From: Variovorax paradoxus B4 | Lineage (GTDB): Bacteria > Pseudomonadota > Gammaproteobacteria > Burkholderiales > Burkholderiaceae_C | Assembly: GCF_000463015.1 (NCBI RefSeq) | Contig: NC_022247.1 | Location: forward strand, 1,116,001-1,180,000 | Direction: 5' to 3' | DNA: 64,000 bases | Shown here: piece by piece, positions 4,363 to 43,261 of the stretch | How the letters are laid out: each line of letters starts with the position of its first letter | Numbering within the stretch: position 1 is the first letter of the stretch | Position numbers and translations under genes: made by a program | The notes under the pieces: generated by a model | Told to the model about the DNA's origin: nothing | Database searches by the model: none | The model's input: only the letters and a program-made list of their open reading frames with translations

Positions 4363-4402
4363 GAAGCCCGCCGGGGCATGCCTCGGCGGGCTTCGTCGTT
4401 TT
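4363..4402 (+). terminator. Rho-independent terminator after ffh
   Basis: An 11-bp stem (GAAGCCCGCCG paired with CGGCGGGCTTC, outer limits 4363-4394) closes a 10-base loop and is followed by a short T-rich tract. It lies between convergent ffh and the HD-Pnk gene and could serve both. Confidence 0.8.
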
Positions 4403-5541
4403 CAGGTCTGCACTTCGTAGACCGTGTCGTGCGCCTCGATCGGCGTCGGCAGCTCCCAGCGATGCAGCATCCGCTCGATGCCCGCATTCGACAACGTGGT
4501 GTCGCGCTCGCGGTTGCGGCGCATCAGCTCGGTATGCGGCACTTCCAGGTACACCAGCTCGCTCTGGGCGTGGTACGCCCAGAGCAGGTCCAGCGTCTTG
4601 GTGCGCATCTGCTGGCTCAGGTGCGTGGCGTTCCAGACGAAGCGGTCCTGCTTGCGCAGTAGCGCCTTGGCCTGATCGACCGCATGGTGCGCGGCGAGTC
4701 CATCGTTCTCGCCGTGCCTCAACCCGAGTTCGGCGCGCGCATCGTCGAAGGACACGACCGGCCAGCCCTTGCGATGGTGCGCCACCCAGTGGTTCTTGCC
4801 GCTCGCCGGCAGGCCGCACATCACCGTCACCTGAGAGCCCGCGGCGTGGAACAGCGGGTAGTCGGGGCTGGTGTCGGCGCCGCGGAAATAGGCCAGGCGC
4901 GTGTGCGCGTCGGTCATTCGGCGCGGGCCTTCCCAGCAGCCTTCTTCCTGCGCCAGTTCCTCGAAGAGGGCGATGTCAGCCATGCTGTCCGCGCGTTTCT
5001 CATAGTGGCGCCCGAGCATGTCGCAGCGCGCCACGCAGCACAGGTCGGGCAGGCTCAGTTCCCAGGAGAGCTTGTGCACCAGCCACGCGGGCCGCACGCC
5101 CTTGCGCGAGGCAAAAGCATGGAACGGCACCTGGTGCACCGCGATGATCCGGCACACGGCTTCGCGCAGCGCAAACGGCACGCGGGCCTTCCACATCAGC
5201 ACGCGCGCGTCGACCGATCCGCGGCGCGAATGACCGGGCTGGCCGATGCGGCCGCTGGTTTCGTCGATCACCGTGGTGTCGGGCTTGGCGATATCGTGCA
5301 GCAGGCAGGCCATGAACAGCACGAAGCGGCCCTCGGCGTCGGCGCGTTGATAGTGCGCGTCCTGCATCAGTACGTCGAGCACCATGCGCGTGTGGATGCC
5401 GACGTTGCCTTCGGCATGGTAGTACGGATCTTGCGGCGTTTCTTCGAGGCGTCGCAGGTCCGGCAGCAATTCGCAGCATTGCGTCCAGTCGGTGCCTCTT
5501 CCGAGCGCGGGCACCAGCGCGTTCAGATCGTCGTAGTTCAT
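4402..5541 (-). CDS. HD phosphoesterase - polynucleotide kinase fusion (HD-Pnk type)
   Basis: A 379-residue two-domain protein. The N-terminal HD domain has His50 and the HD pair in LLHDIAKP (residues 81-87). The C-terminal P-loop kinase domain has GLPASGKN at 243-250, a catalytic-type Asp in SFDDAR (264-269) and a lid with MRRNRERD near 343. This is the domain order of Runella slithyformis HD-Pnk, in which the HD domain removes 2',3'-cyclic or 3'-phosphates and the kinase phosphorylates 5'-OH ends. The ATG at 5541 has a strong AAGGAGGT ribosome site just upstream. It overlaps the stop of the RNA ligase gene by four bases (ATGA), so the two proteins are translationally coupled and should act in sequence: heal, then seal. 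Activity is inferred from family and motifs. Confidence 0.82.
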   Translation of the reverse strand: MNYDDLNALVPALGRGTDWTQCCELLPDLRRLEETPQDPYYHAEGNVGIHTRMVLDVLMQDAHYQRADAEGRFVLFMACLLHDIAKPDTTVIDETSGRIGQPGHSRRGSVDARVLMWKARVPFALREAVCRIIAVHQVPFHAFASRKGVRPAWLVHKLSWELSLPDLCCVARCDMLGRHYEKRADSMADIALFEELAQEEGCWEGPRRMTDAHTRLAYFRGADTSPDYPLFHAAGSQVTVMCGLPASGKNHWVAHHRKGWPVVSFDDARAELGLRHGENDGLAAHHAVDQAKALLRKQDRFVWNATHLSQQMRTKTLDLLWAYHAQSELVYLEVPHTELMRRNRERDTTLSNAGIERMLHRWELPTPIEAHDTVYEVQT

Positions 5542-6434
5542 CGCGACCTCCTTGCTGTTGTCAGTTCGGCGGGCTGGTGCAGCGTGCACAGTCCCAGGTC
5601 GCGCCATGTCGTCGTTGGCGTCGGTGCGTAGAGATCCACGCCCGGCGCCAGTTGGTTGGGCAGCACCGGCCGGCGGCTGTGGTGCGAGCCCGAGTCGAGG
5701 ATGGTCTGAACAAAATCCGGACGCACCCACTTGTATCGGCCCGTCACCTGGCCGTGCGACTCGGTCTTGAGATACAGGCCCTCGGCCAGGTTTGACAGGT
5801 CGGTCTGCTGCCGCACGAGGTCGAGCGGTTGCCCTTCCTGCATCACGGCCTGTTCGAAAGCTGCCTTCCAGTCGGCACTGCGCGCGAGCGACGGTTGCAC
5901 GAGCGAGCGCAATGCTTTCGCGTGGCGCGGCATCTCACCGTCGTAGAGCACCGGCACCGAAAGGGCCGGGCTGCCGTCGAGCAGCGCGTGCCGTGCGGGG
6001 GTCGACAGGAAGCACCGCGCCTGCCGGTCGTAGAGATCGAACTCCAGGAAGAACGCGGGCAGGCGGTCATACCAGCAGCTGTGCTTGGCAAAGCACCACT
6101 CGCCATACATCACGTAGCGGTCTTCGAGCCGCTCCAGCAACACGGCTTCATGCGCGGCGGCCCAGTGCTTGAACAGGTTGAACTGGCGCTCGCCAGCCCC
6201 GCCCGCGAGGTAGTGGCCGCGCGACTGCAGCAGCAGTTCGCCCGCCGAGGTGAACGACACGGCGGCATTGGCGCCATCGAGTTTTTCCTCGATGACCACA
6301 TGCGTGCCGTGCAGCGTGGACAACGGCGTCTGGTCGTCGTCAGTGTCGCCCGCTTGCAGGCGCGAGCCTTCCAGGTGCGCAGTACGCGGGTACTTGAGCA
6401 GTGGAATCGATGAAAGAGAAGAGAGAGGGAACAC
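5538..6434 (-). CDS. RNA ligase family protein (T4 Rnl2-like nucleotidyltransferase)
   Basis: A 298-residue ATP-dependent polynucleotide ligase candidate. Ligase motif I is EEKLDGAN with the adenylated Lys at residue 51, motif III YGEWCFAKH at about 110-118, motif IIIa FFLEFDLYDR at 128-137, motif IV EGLYLKTE, and motif V RYKWVRPDF. The N-terminal KYPRTAHLEGS block is typical of this RNA ligase group. I chose the GTG at 6434 because GGAG sits six bases ahead of it; an in-frame TTG at 6470 would add 12 residues. It precedes and overlaps the HD-Pnk gene, giving a full end-healing and sealing pair. No RtcB-like gene or release-factor homolog is nearby. Confidence 0.85.
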   Translation of the reverse strand: MFPLSSLSSIPLLKYPRTAHLEGSRLQAGDTDDDQTPLSTLHGTHVVIEEKLDGANAAVSFTSAGELLLQSRGHYLAGGAGERQFNLFKHWAAAHEAVLLERLEDRYVMYGEWCFAKHSCWYDRLPAFFLEFDLYDRQARCFLSTPARHALLDGSPALSVPVLYDGEMPRHAKALRSLVQPSLARSADWKAAFEQAVMQEGQPLDLVRQQTDLSNLAEGLYLKTESHGQVTGRYKWVRPDFVQTILDSGSHHSRRPVLPNQLAPGVDLYAPTPTTTWRDLGLCTLHQPAELTTARRSR

Positions 6435-6735
6435 GTTGTTCTCCAGATGCAAATCAGGAAGAACCGACAACGTGCGGGAGCGAAGCTGGAAAGAGGATCG
6501 ACTTCAGCGGCCGGTGGGCCGTGTCTGGTCAGCGGGATGCGCAGCTTGGCGCCCGACATGACCAGTGAAGTGGTTGTTGTCGGCGTCAGAGGGTGATGAC
6601 TGCGAATCGGGGCACTTGGCGCTCCAGGGGATCGAGGGATCCGTGGGTTGAAAAAGGAAGGCGCGATTCTAGCCACGCGCCAAAAAAAAAGCCGACCCTG
6701 AGGCCGGCTTTTTGCGAGGCGGTGTCTTCAGCGCA
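6435..6735 (-). other. Leader/promoter region of the RNA repair operon
   Basis: No gene is supported in these 301 bases. They hold the opgH terminator (6682-6713) and a possible -10 element TAGAAT (minus strand, 6666-6671) in an extended TGGC context. If used, transcription would begin near 6660 and leave a leader of roughly 220 nt before the ligase start. No known riboswitch was recognised. Confidence 0.4.
6682..6713 (-). terminator. Rho-independent terminator after opgH
   Basis: On the minus strand, an imperfect GC stem (GCCGGCC with GGTCGGC around a short loop), flanked by complementary A and T tracts, is followed by a run of nine T. It ends opgH transcription just before the putative promoter of the RNA ligase operon. 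Confidence 0.8.
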
Positions 6736-41293: not shown

Positions 41294-41673
41294 CGTGTGT
41301 GCCCAGCATGGGCGCGATCCTGGAGGTGCAAGTCCTCCCGCGAGCTGGCCACAGCGAGCGAAGCGAACCGCAACTGCGCGAGGGCGACCGAGCGTGGGGA
41401 GGAAGCGGGGAGCGAAACCGCGAGTCGAGGAACACGAACCTCATACGAGGCGCTGCCGAGCAGGGCGAGCGGGCATGAGACTGCGAAGCTCTTGTGGTCA
41501 AGGCGAGGTGGCGTAAATGGGGCGATTGTGCGGTGAAGGATCGCGTTCTTACCCGGGGAGATCTCGCCTCGTGCCTGAAAGGGCGACGGGCTTGCCCGGA
41601 GCGAGAAGTCAGCAGCGGCCGTAGTAGTCGGGTTCCCCGACGAAGGGCCAAACGAAAAGGACAGTGACGAGAC

Positions 41674-43261
41674 ATGCCGCTTGGAAGTGCAAGGCATCAG
41701 AAGTGCGCGCAAGCGCAGCGACCGACGCAAGGGCGCGGTGAAGCCTCGCCGGAGCGTGGGCGCGATGAAGCACGGCCGGCGCGGCATGACCACACGCACT
41801 GGGGGCCAGAGGACCTGATGGGGCAGGCACTGGCACAGCACAACATGGCGGCGGCGTGGAAACGCGTCAAGGCCAACAAGGGGAGCGCCGGCGTCGATGG
41901 ACGCACGGTGCAGCAAACGGGGGAAGACCTGAAGACCCAATGGCCCGACATCCGGCGCGGCTTGCTCGACGGTACCTACCGGCCCAGTCCGGTACGCCGC
42001 GTGGGCATACCCAAGCCGGGTGGAGGGACACGGGAATTGGGGATTCCCACCGTGGTGGACAGGCTGATCCAGCAGGCCCTGTTGCAGGTGCTGCAACCGC
42101 TCATCGATCCGACCTTCAGCGAGCACAGCTACGGCTTTAGGCCGGGGCGCAGCGCGCATCAGGCGGTCCAAGCGGCCAGACGGTACGTGGAGCAAGGCAG
42201 GCGTGTGGTGGTGGACGTGGACCTGGAGAAATTCTTGGATCGGTCTCCATAATGCCCCTTGGTTCATGACGCCTCGTCGAATAAGGTGGGTTGATCGTCT
42301 AACACCTTGATGCGTAAGCCTTTTTGCCGTCCGCGGCAGACGAGCACGGCGTCGAGTTCGCCGCGTTGGACACGGTGCAACACGGTCTGGCGGGTGACGC
42401 CCAGGCGCTTGGTCGCTTCCTGCATCACGACGTAGCTCTCTGGGGCATCTTCGACCGCGTGAACCACGACATCCTGATGGATCGGCTGGGCAAGCGAATC
42501 GCCGACAAGGCGGTGCTGCGGCTGATCCGTCACTACCTGAACGCCGGCATCATGGCGCACGGGGTCATGCAGATGCGCGTGGAGGGGGCACGCCGCAAGG
42601 TGGGCCGCTGTCGCCGCTGCTGGCCAACGTGCTGCTCGACGAGGTGGACCGCGCGCTCGAACGCAGGGGGCACAAGTTCGTGCGCTATGCGGACGACTGC
42701 AATGTCTACGTCAAGAGCAAGCGTGCCGGGCAACGGGTGTTGGACGGGCTGCGGGCGTGCTATGCCAAGCTGTGGTTGAAGGTCAACGAGACCAAGACCG
42801 CTGTGGCGACGGCATGGGGGCGCAAGTTCCTGGGCTACTGCCTGTGGGCTGCGCCGCAAAAGCAGGTGAAACTGGCCGTGGCCGGGGAGGCGGTGCAACG
42901 CTACAAGCAGCGCATTCGCCAGATAACCCGGCGCCAGACGGGGCGCAGCATGAACCAGATCGCACAGGACCTGCAAGCGTTCCTGCCGGGGTGGAAGGCG
43001 TACTTCCAACTGGCACAGACGCCCTCGGTCTGGCGGCGACTGGACGAATGGTTGCGGCACCGCTTGCGAGCCATCCAGTTGAAGTTCTGGTGTCGGGGCC
43101 CGACCATGTACCGTGAACTGCGCGCCTTGGGTGCCAGTCGCGACGTGGCCGCCCGGATTGCGGCCAATGCTCGGCGCTGGTGGCACAACAGCGCGATGGC
43201 GCTGAACCGCGTGCTCACCATCGCGTACTTCGATGCGCTCGGAGTTCCCCGCCTATGCTGA
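41674..43261 (+). pseudogene. Group II intron reverse transcriptase/maturase (interrupted, frameshifted)
   Basis: Remains of an LtrA-like intron-encoded protein. The first part is intact through RT motifs (SAGVDGRTV, PIPKPGGG-like VGIPKPGGGTRELGIPTVVDRLIQQ, HSYGFRPGRSAHQAV) to VVVDVDLEKF at 42234. It is then broken by 215 foreign bases and resumes at FDRVNHDILMDRL (42450). A G-run near 42585 shifts the frame before the expected EGTPQGGPLSPLL block. The last part restores FVRYADDCNVYVKS (catalytic YADD), the thumb and the maturase X domain (GWKAYFQLAQ). No HNH domain is present. Three broken reading frames mean no functional protein, unless supplied in trans. Confidence 0.85.
42235..42449 (-). 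mobile_element. 215-bp foreign fragment inside the intron RT gene
   Basis: This segment exactly splits LEKF from FDRV of the RT. On its minus strand it reads the C-terminus of a helix-turn-helix protein (QEATKRLGVTRQTVLHRV, then GLRIKVLDDQPTLFDEAS and stop at 42264), followed by an ATGA-overlapped start of another frame (MNQGALWRP). It is thus a cut piece spanning two linked genes, not a whole IS. No clear inverted ends or target duplication were seen. The helix-turn-helix tail resembles excisionase/recombinase-linked DNA-binding proteins. Confidence 0.6.

Follow-up and report, generated by a model that had tools for sequence, protein, structure and literature searches.

We analysed a 64,000-nucleotide (nt) stretch of Variovorax paradoxus B4 (contig NC_022247.1, positions 1,116,001 to 1,180,000 of the forward strand; hereafter the window, whose own coordinates we use throughout), in which a minus-strand operon encodes an ATP-dependent RNA ligase followed by HD-Pnk, a fusion of an HD phosphoesterase to a P-loop 5'-OH polynucleotide kinase. 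A preliminary description of this DNA placed the two genes at 4402..6434 and read them as a cassette for healing and sealing RNA ends; it overlooked the leader upstream of 6434. We find there a short upstream open reading frame (uORF) and three RNA strands, S1, S2 and S3, of which S2 can pair either with S1 or with S3 at the ribosome-binding site (RBS) of the ligase. Judged from sequence comparison, the locus is probably a damage-responsive RNA-repair cassette under a uORF-controlled translational attenuator, which would induce repair when translation is damaged.

The ligase and HD-Pnk operon

Both genes lie on the minus strand where the preliminary description put them, and they overlap as it claimed, with the ligase stop codon (5540-5538) and the HD-Pnk start codon (ATG, 5541-5539) sharing the letters ATGA. 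The ligase starts with GTG at 6434-6432, preceded by GGAG (6444-6441), and the HD-Pnk stop codon ends at 4402. The features of the operon and its leader are collected in Table 1. The terminator scan that reported the hairpin beyond HD-Pnk found 2 sites in the window, compared to 1.4 expected in shuffled sequences. A search of the B4 genome itself (7.15 Mb, 2 contigs) gave a single ligase match.

Table 1. Features of the operon and its leader in window coordinates (SD, Shine-Dalgarno; aa, amino acids; AMP, adenosine monophosphate)
Feature	Position	Strand	Basis or remark
RNA ligase, ATP-dependent (PF09414 nucleotidyltransferase)	5538..6434	minus	298 aa; Lys51 is the predicted AMP acceptor
HD-Pnk: N-terminal HD phosphoesterase (H82-D83), C-terminal P-loop 5'-OH polynucleotide kinase (GLPASGKN)	4402..5541	minus	379 aa
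Terminator-like hairpin between ffh (plus) and HD-Pnk (minus)	4363..4394	plus	terminator scan
-10-like hexamer TAGAAT, presumed operon promoter	6666..6671	minus	invariant in 17 aligned Variovorax loci
uORF SD, GGAG	6622..6625	minus	read in the sequence
uORF (leader peptide MPRFAVITL), GTG...TGA, 9 codons	6586..6615	minus	read in the sequence; comparative
S1 strand GCCGACAAC	6576..6584	minus	starts 1 nt past the uORF stop
S2 strand CACGTTGTCGGT	6463..6474	minus	S1:S2 covariation; S2:RBS pairing
S2 part pairing with S1, GTTGTCGGT	6471-6463	minus	
S2 part pairing with S3, CACGTTGT	6474-6467	minus	
Ligase SD, GGAG, inside the S2:S3 hairpin	6441..6444	minus	paired in the closed hairpin of folded Variovorax loci
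S3 strand ACAACGTG, contains the ligase GTG start	6432..6439	minus	

Pfam searches and residue conservation both uphold the family assignments. The ligase matches RNA_ligase (PF09414, E=3.9e-33), and the lysine of its motif I (Lys51 within EKLDG) is accompanied by motifs III-V; E50, K51, D53, G54, E112, E218, G219, K235 and R238 are invariant across 15 aligned rows. HD-Pnk matches AAA_33 (PF13671, E=9.4e-17) and, at 21.2 bits, which is 0.8 bits below the 22-bit cut-off, HD (PF01966, E=3.6e-4). The HD pair at residues 82-83 and GLPASGKN (243-250) are present as previously reported, and in 19 diverse rows that include DRB0098 of Deinococcus radiodurans, H42, H50, H82, D83, K86, H104, D174 and R178 are invariant, as are G243, G248, K249, D266 and R346. 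Thus, an HD domain and a P-loop kinase stand in one chain whose metal-binding and kinase residues are kept in the D. radiodurans protein; no presumed catalytic residue has been lost and the motifs are intact throughout both alignments. Because the two enzymes match 2054 and 3421 database proteins at E≤1e-3, these matches are not due to chance; the closest named relatives of both are from Variovorax.

An AlphaFold2 model of HD-Pnk (mean predicted local distance difference test score 84.5, predicted template modelling score 0.87) matched a bacterial polynucleotide kinase structure (4jt2, E=1.9e-5) and an HD-bearing 'tRNA processing enzyme' (3wfp, E=1.9e-4). Similarly, the sequence profile of HD-Pnk matched a kinase over residues 236-360 and 3wfo/3wfp over residues 72-199. 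The same order, with an N-terminal HD phosphoesterase and a C-terminal kinase, is found in the HD-Pnk of Runella slithyformis. The label 'Rnl2-like' given earlier to the ligase was not established by our searches: the single sequence had no match in the PDB at E≤0.1, the best match of the family profile was a weak one to the Naegleria gruberi RNA ligase (E=6.6e-4), and no chain named T4 RNA ligase 2 was among the 17 PDB matches listed for that profile. Neither protein belonged to any family in the PADLOC models of anti-phage defence. We consider it very probable, from these sequence relationships, that the proteins form an RNA end-healing and sealing pair, the part of the earlier interpretation that stands. 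By homology, HD-Pnk would remove a 2',3'-cyclic phosphate or a 3'-phosphate and phosphorylate a 5'-OH, and the ligase would join the healed ends. The enzymes are of a known kind; what appears to be new at this locus is the leader.

A leader with a short uORF and competing strands

The leader occupies 6435-6671, between the presumed promoter and the ligase. In an alignment of 17 Variovorax upstream regions, the ∼230 nt from TAGAAT to the ligase start contain long invariant blocks. We only presume the promoter, because a consensus scan gave no complete sigma-70 site at the leader; a weak terminator-like stem (6661-6678) overlaps TAGAAT.

Comparison beyond Variovorax was based on a scan of named genomes, in which at least 584 ligase relatives were confirmed; the best 80 of these at least 584 loci, ranging from Variovorax to Pseudomonas, Pectobacterium and Gilliamella, were kept for the comparison. 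In each of the 80, the ligase is followed by HD-Pnk after a gap of 0-544 nt (median 30); the HD-Pnk match is partial in two (L123 and L140; L and G numbers denote loci and genomes). The ligase of another of these 80 loci (L125) carries an in-frame stop, which reflects decay or a sequencing error.

A uORF of 7-9 codons is present in 80/80 loci (7, 8 and 9 codons in 2, 48 and 30 loci, respectively), beginning with GTG in 51 and ATG in 29, and 77 of these uORFs have an SD-like tetramer ahead of them. A rule that required S1 past the stop, with or without an SD, found the uORF in 69 loci; in the other 11, where the bases past the stop have diverged, S1 was dropped and an SD required. A stricter signature, comprising an SD, 7-9 codons and YYGWC at most 10 nt past the stop, occurs in 66 of the 80 upstream regions, compared to 0, 1, 0, 0 and 0 of 80 in five dinucleotide shuffles, and in 8 of 1256 windows taken from other parts of these loci.

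The length of the uORF is thus nearly fixed, but its peptide is not. Among the 80 loci there are 46 distinct peptides, with no residue after Met common to all, and changes between close pairs are more often nonsynonymous than synonymous (29 versus 16). That the peptide is free to vary argues against an arrest peptide. Indeed, we think it quite improbable that the leader is an attenuator specific for an amino acid or peptide, in which cleavage of one tRNA, or binding of a metabolite, would make ribosomes stall at a particular codon or on an arrest peptide, even though arginine tRNAs are ribotoxin targets and the distinct peptides have preferences, with Pro at codon 2 in 31 of the 46 and Arg or Cys at codon 3 in 23 and 8. 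Since it is the near-fixed-length reading frame and not the peptide that is kept, the uORF should report a general arrest of initiation or early elongation rather than the supply of one amino acid.

The leader is apparently undescribed. Rfam release 15 gave no match over it at the gathering score and only sub-threshold matches at E≤10, and we found no account of it in the open-licence papers searched by title and abstract, a set outside which most subscription journals fall. A reading of the Variovorax leader as a riboswitch, ribozyme or pseudoknot was dropped once other genera showed the uORF and three-strand pattern; Rfam returned nothing. In the B4 genome, a loose uORF-S1 pattern occurs at 11 sites, none of which, besides the operon leader itself (L151), was judged to be a second copy; this judgement was based on the sequence for L151, L152 and L153, and on the pattern matches for the other 8. 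The L153 site is in frame but falls within a long open frame that looks RelA-like by inspection. No uORF-S1-S2 arrangement was seen upstream of the rtcB gene of B4.

The pairings of S2 with S1 and with S3 both use GTTGT and are therefore mutually exclusive. S2 was chosen by a pattern blind to S1, which yielded it in 67 of 69 loci (29 distinct rows). In these 29 rows, 275 of 319 S1:S2 cells are paired, compared to 251 ± 4.5 when the columns were shuffled (265 in the highest of 1000 shuffles), and the score is 0.86 in register but 0.63 when the strands are slid by 3 either way, the latter due to a GAC/GUC repeat. At position 1, 24 rows have C-G, 4 have U-A and 1 has U-G; at position 5, 19 rows have G-C, 8 have A-U, 1 has G-U and 1 is unpaired. 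The changes are compensatory, from C-G to U-A in Oxalobacteraceae and between G-C and A-U in Variovorax, Gilliamella and P. asuensis. In a test for ungapped stems across 56 distinct loci, S1:S2 ranked at ≤10/200 shuffles in 39.

The alternative helix, which closes the ligase RBS, is likewise conserved. Four or more pairs join S2 to the ligase RBS or start in 53/53 distinct loci versus 46% of shuffles, and six or more do so in 34/53 versus 30% (mean energy z -2.26); exchanging S2 across genera weakened the hairpin in 299 of 376 chimeras. The strands themselves differ between genera, with S2 and S3 being TTCGTCGG and CCGACGAA in Roseateles, GTTCGTTG and CAACGAAC in Comamonas sp. JUb58, and CATCGTCGTC and GACGACGATG in Rhizobacter, while in Pseudomonas and Gilliamella, S2, together with a 3' extension, base-pairs with the SD region of the ligase and with bases at the start and second codons. 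Within groups, RNAalifold returned the closing helix in Variovorax, Roseateles-type leaders, Pelomonas and Achromobacter, and S1:S2 instead in Gilliamella, Pseudomonas and Oxalobacteraceae.

The S1 and S2 cores are 58-241 nt apart (median 114; ∼100 in B4). Such distances are at odds with a transcription attenuator, in which the S1:S2 or RBS hairpin would be a terminator or the closed state would expose the transcript to Rho; neither do we find a U tract after S2 in Roseateles/Pectobacterium-type leaders, nor a terminator at S2 in the scan of the window. UUUUCC does follow S2 in Gilliamella and some Pseudomonas leaders, and RBS closure is tied to Rho termination in the consulted portion of a report on toiL (PMC12121999), but we regard this mechanism as highly improbable here, although Rho may be involved.

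Two side features were noted between S2 and the ligase start. Leaders of Pectobacterium, Bordetella and Roseateles (L076-L083, L086-L089) have a conserved hairpin between S2 and S3, with the loop CCAA(U/C/G)AA, ∼15-35 nt before the ligase start; in Oxalobacteraceae, an SD-like GGUGAA occupies the place of this hairpin.

The leader thus has a conserved uORF with its own SD and, from sequence and folding, two exclusive helices, one of which closes the RBS. We conclude with good confidence that it is a uORF-dependent translational attenuator, as far as comparative analysis can indicate. In the proposed mechanism, the transcript begins with the short uORF and its own RBS. Pairing of S2 with S1 would leave the ligase RBS free (on), while pairing of S2 with S3 over the ligase SD and start would close it (off). 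A ribosome at the end of the uORF would mask S1, allowing S2:S3 to form and turning the ligase off; a ribosome arrested on the first codons, as might be caused by damaged ribosomes or missing tRNAs, would leave S1 free to form S1:S2, and the ligase would be made, with the ATGA-coupled kinase produced together with it.

Predicted effect of ribosome position

We examined the direction of the switch by masking a ribosome footprint at positions along the uORF and computing the accessibility of the ligase RBS from equilibrium folding. If early arrest opens the RBS, a ribosome at the start of the uORF is expected to leave the RBS more accessible than one at the stop. Indeed, the gain exceeds 0.05 for 43 of 68 leaders, and no leader shows the opposite. 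Mean accessibility is 0.37 with the ribosome at the start, 0.25 at the stop and 0.27 with no ribosome. In 40 representatives the mean change from stop to start is +0.103 (20 up, 0 down), compared to 0.003 in 240 shuffles (55 up, 51 down). Similarly, in 32 representatives, accessibility rises on average by 0.09-0.10 with a ribosome at codons 1-3 (by more than 0.05 at codon 1 in 18) and falls slightly with one at codons 7-8. Given a uORF-dependent attenuator, modelling therefore suggests that early arrest is the likelier way of turning the ligase on. Since the RBS is mostly closed when no ribosome is present, the model favours early arrest over the mere absence of ribosomes as the inducer, and loss of translation alone may not induce the operon.

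Several observations weigh against this interpretation. The difference between start and stop is less than 0.05 in 25 of the 68 leaders, and 14 of the 32 representatives, including Bordetella genomosp. 5, Massilia, Pelomonas, Rhizobacter, Ralstonia and one Achromobacter, have no rise above 0.05 even at codon 1. The RBS without a ribosome is nearly as closed as with one at the uORF stop. The 40 representatives are related, and the P value from their comparison with shuffles is thus no true probability. The support consists of equilibrium folding, and expression from the leader is a prediction. Three uORFs (L108, L138 and L141) are without an SD-like tetramer, and the substitutions between close pairs bear no sign of selection on the peptide. 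The S2:S3 stem taken alone and ungapped ranks at ≤10/200 shuffles in just 11 of 56 loci, and S1 has an additional nearby local partner in Roseateles/Bordetella-type leaders. RNAalifold applied to mixed genera missed the closing helix, yielding no pairs from one alignment (A5) and only an inner hairpin from another (A6), a failure due to the different registers of S3. As for the enzymes, the D. radiodurans ligase DRB0100, the nearest tested ligase known to us, self-adenylated but joined neither DNA nor RNA in vitro, according to the part of the report available (PMC1997131); the earlier claim that the pair has everything needed for repair is thus a presumption.

The leaders that give no clear predicted uORF effect are also what one would expect if the operon were a housekeeping pair for RNA (or DNA) repair, constitutive or induced at the level of transcription, with a hairpin that merely lowers basal translation and an incidental uORF. 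The pairing of S2 with the RBS is strong by itself, and an HD-Pnk relative has been described for DNA end healing in the accessible text of PMC1997131. An incidental uORF, however, would scarcely recur in every locus, in all but three with an SD-like tetramer, nor would its signature with S1 so far exceed the level in shuffled sequences, and S1, which makes no contact with the RBS, is nonetheless kept through compensatory changes. We therefore consider a housekeeping role unlikely and favour the uORF-dependent attenuator.

Distribution and comparison with known systems

Both genes occur together in 18 of 61 Variovorax genomes, 17 with a chromosomal copy and one (G008) with the pair on an 839-kb contig, where ∼0.5 kb separates the two genes. 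In all 17 chromosomal carriers ffh adjoins HD-Pnk, and in 15 opgH is on the other side of the cassette; it was not seen there in G017 and G045. We inspected the ffh locus in 13 of the 44 genomes without a chromosomal copy, and in 11 of these opgH lies right beside ffh, with no match to the leader; of the other two, one (L161) is at a contig end and one (G039) has an HD-Pnk remnant. A search of the 61 genomes with the leader DNA returned exactly the 17 chromosomal carriers and one stray match of 27 nt. By this comparison, the leader and the genes share one site in Variovorax and are either both there or both missing, so that they appear to come and go together.

Decaying or incomplete copies were noted as well. 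The G039 remnant (L157/L175), a C-terminal piece of HD-Pnk with 97 residues, is all that lies between ffh and opgH, indicating that the cassette can be lost in place, and the ligase of G007 (L028/L030) is split over two frames by decay or sequencing error. Across the order, 15 of 250 genomes have any match to the ligase family, 6 of them at E<1e-100 (B4 included), 2 of these 6 with an internal stop; the single stops inside the ligase matches of G193 and G153 (L046 and L047) are again decay or sequencing error. Two HD-Pnk genes on large plasmids, from Miltoncostaea (L006) and Vibrio (L009), have no annotated RNA ligase in the stretch examined.

Copies of the operon headed by this leader were also found on a plasmid of Pseudomonas aeruginosa (L003) and in two further genomes of the Burkholderiales (L043 and L044); a third Burkholderiales locus, L046, has a diverged leader type, and L047 has no leader within 330 nt. 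No such leader was found ahead of the pair on the Variovorax plasmid (L005/L027) or ahead of the Bosea, cyanobacterial, Deinococcus and phage copies. In bee-gut symbionts, the ligases of Snodgrassella (L116-L118, L123), a betaproteobacterium, and Gilliamella (L109, L110), a gammaproteobacterium, are 78-92% identical in the five pairs compared and have the same leader type, which suggests transfer of leader and operon in the gut.

Three proposals about the role and origin of the cassette were rejected. The pair does not replace RtcB, which is present in 17/17 chromosomal carriers and in 20/44 other Variovorax genomes. As to an origin from phages or plasmids, the ligase has matches in 26 phage records, and HD-Pnk has matches in 13 phage records and 44 plasmid records, every one of these at less than 60% identity. 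Elsewhere in the window, a group II intron RNA (two Rfam domains) lies at 41378-41648 on the plus strand, followed by plus-strand open reading frames at 41674-42252 and 42629-43261 that by inspection look like separate pieces of a reverse-transcriptase/maturase frame.

If the leader does sense where the ribosome stands, as it appears to, the trigger of the HD-Pnk/ligase pair becomes testable, and RNA repair would be linked to toxins or antibiotics that target the ribosome. If the interpretation is correct, the window holds a regulatory RNA that has no match in Rfam release 15, common to Variovorax, Roseateles, Janthinobacterium, Pseudomonas, Pectobacterium and the bee-gut symbionts. The evidence leaves us evenly divided on a more general proposal for Beta- and Gammaproteobacteria, in which the uORF, near-constant in length but free in sequence, would serve as a ribosome ruler, a ribosome halted at initiation or on the first codons (for instance once a ribotoxin has cut rRNA or tRNA) would flip the three-strand switch and expose the ligase start, damage would thereby induce its own repair without a protein regulator, and switch and enzymes would move as a cassette.

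The earlier view that the gene pair is little described must be revised, as our survey of gene neighbourhoods shows a conserved operon, and the D. radiodurans version, which encodes the ligase, a macro/PARG-like protein and HD-Pnk, was studied biochemically in 2007, as the available part of that paper states (PMC1997131). By sequence, DRB0100-DRB0099-DRB0098 appears to be the nearest tested operon among those considered. It encodes both enzyme families, arranged as in B4; DRB0098 is 29% identical to HD-Pnk over most of its length, and DRB0100 is 29% identical to the ligase over 126 alignment columns that include EKLDG. It differs in the PF10021 (macro/PARG-like) protein between the two genes, in a ligase of just 210 aa, and in having no uORF leader by the same pattern. 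The jumbo phage LR756500 similarly has an RNA ligase (L010, 3868-4962) followed directly by HD-Pnk, but this ligase has what reads as an N-terminal HNH-like extension, and there is no leader. Rnl2-family fusions with such an extension are mentioned for the RNA repair sets of jumbo phages in the excerpt consulted of PMC7824862. Among 80 viral loci, 10 have a match to the HD-Pnk profile, of which 2 (L188 and L189) are strong and downstream of the ligase; the leader is absent from both.

Damage-linked induction of RNA repair is also a property of the RtcBA/RtcR system, which is induced by damaged tRNAs according to the consulted section of PMC7790460, but there the chemistry is that of RtcB and sensing occurs via the RtcR/sigma54 activator. 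With respect to the leader, the closest likeness is to toiL-topAI of E. coli and the ermBL-type attenuators, in which a short uORF is combined with a hairpin that closes the downstream RBS and is opened by ribosome stalling, as described for toiL in the available portion of PMC12121999. In toiL, it is the uORF region itself that is proposed in that portion to form the hairpin with the topAI RBS, whereas in the Variovorax leader it is a strand past the end of the uORF that rivals the RBS in pairing with a third strand; moreover, the leader peptide is free to vary, and the genes controlled are those of RNA repair. By analogy, the regulation is of the same kind as that of the toiL and erm leaders, differing from them in how the strands compete and in having a new target.

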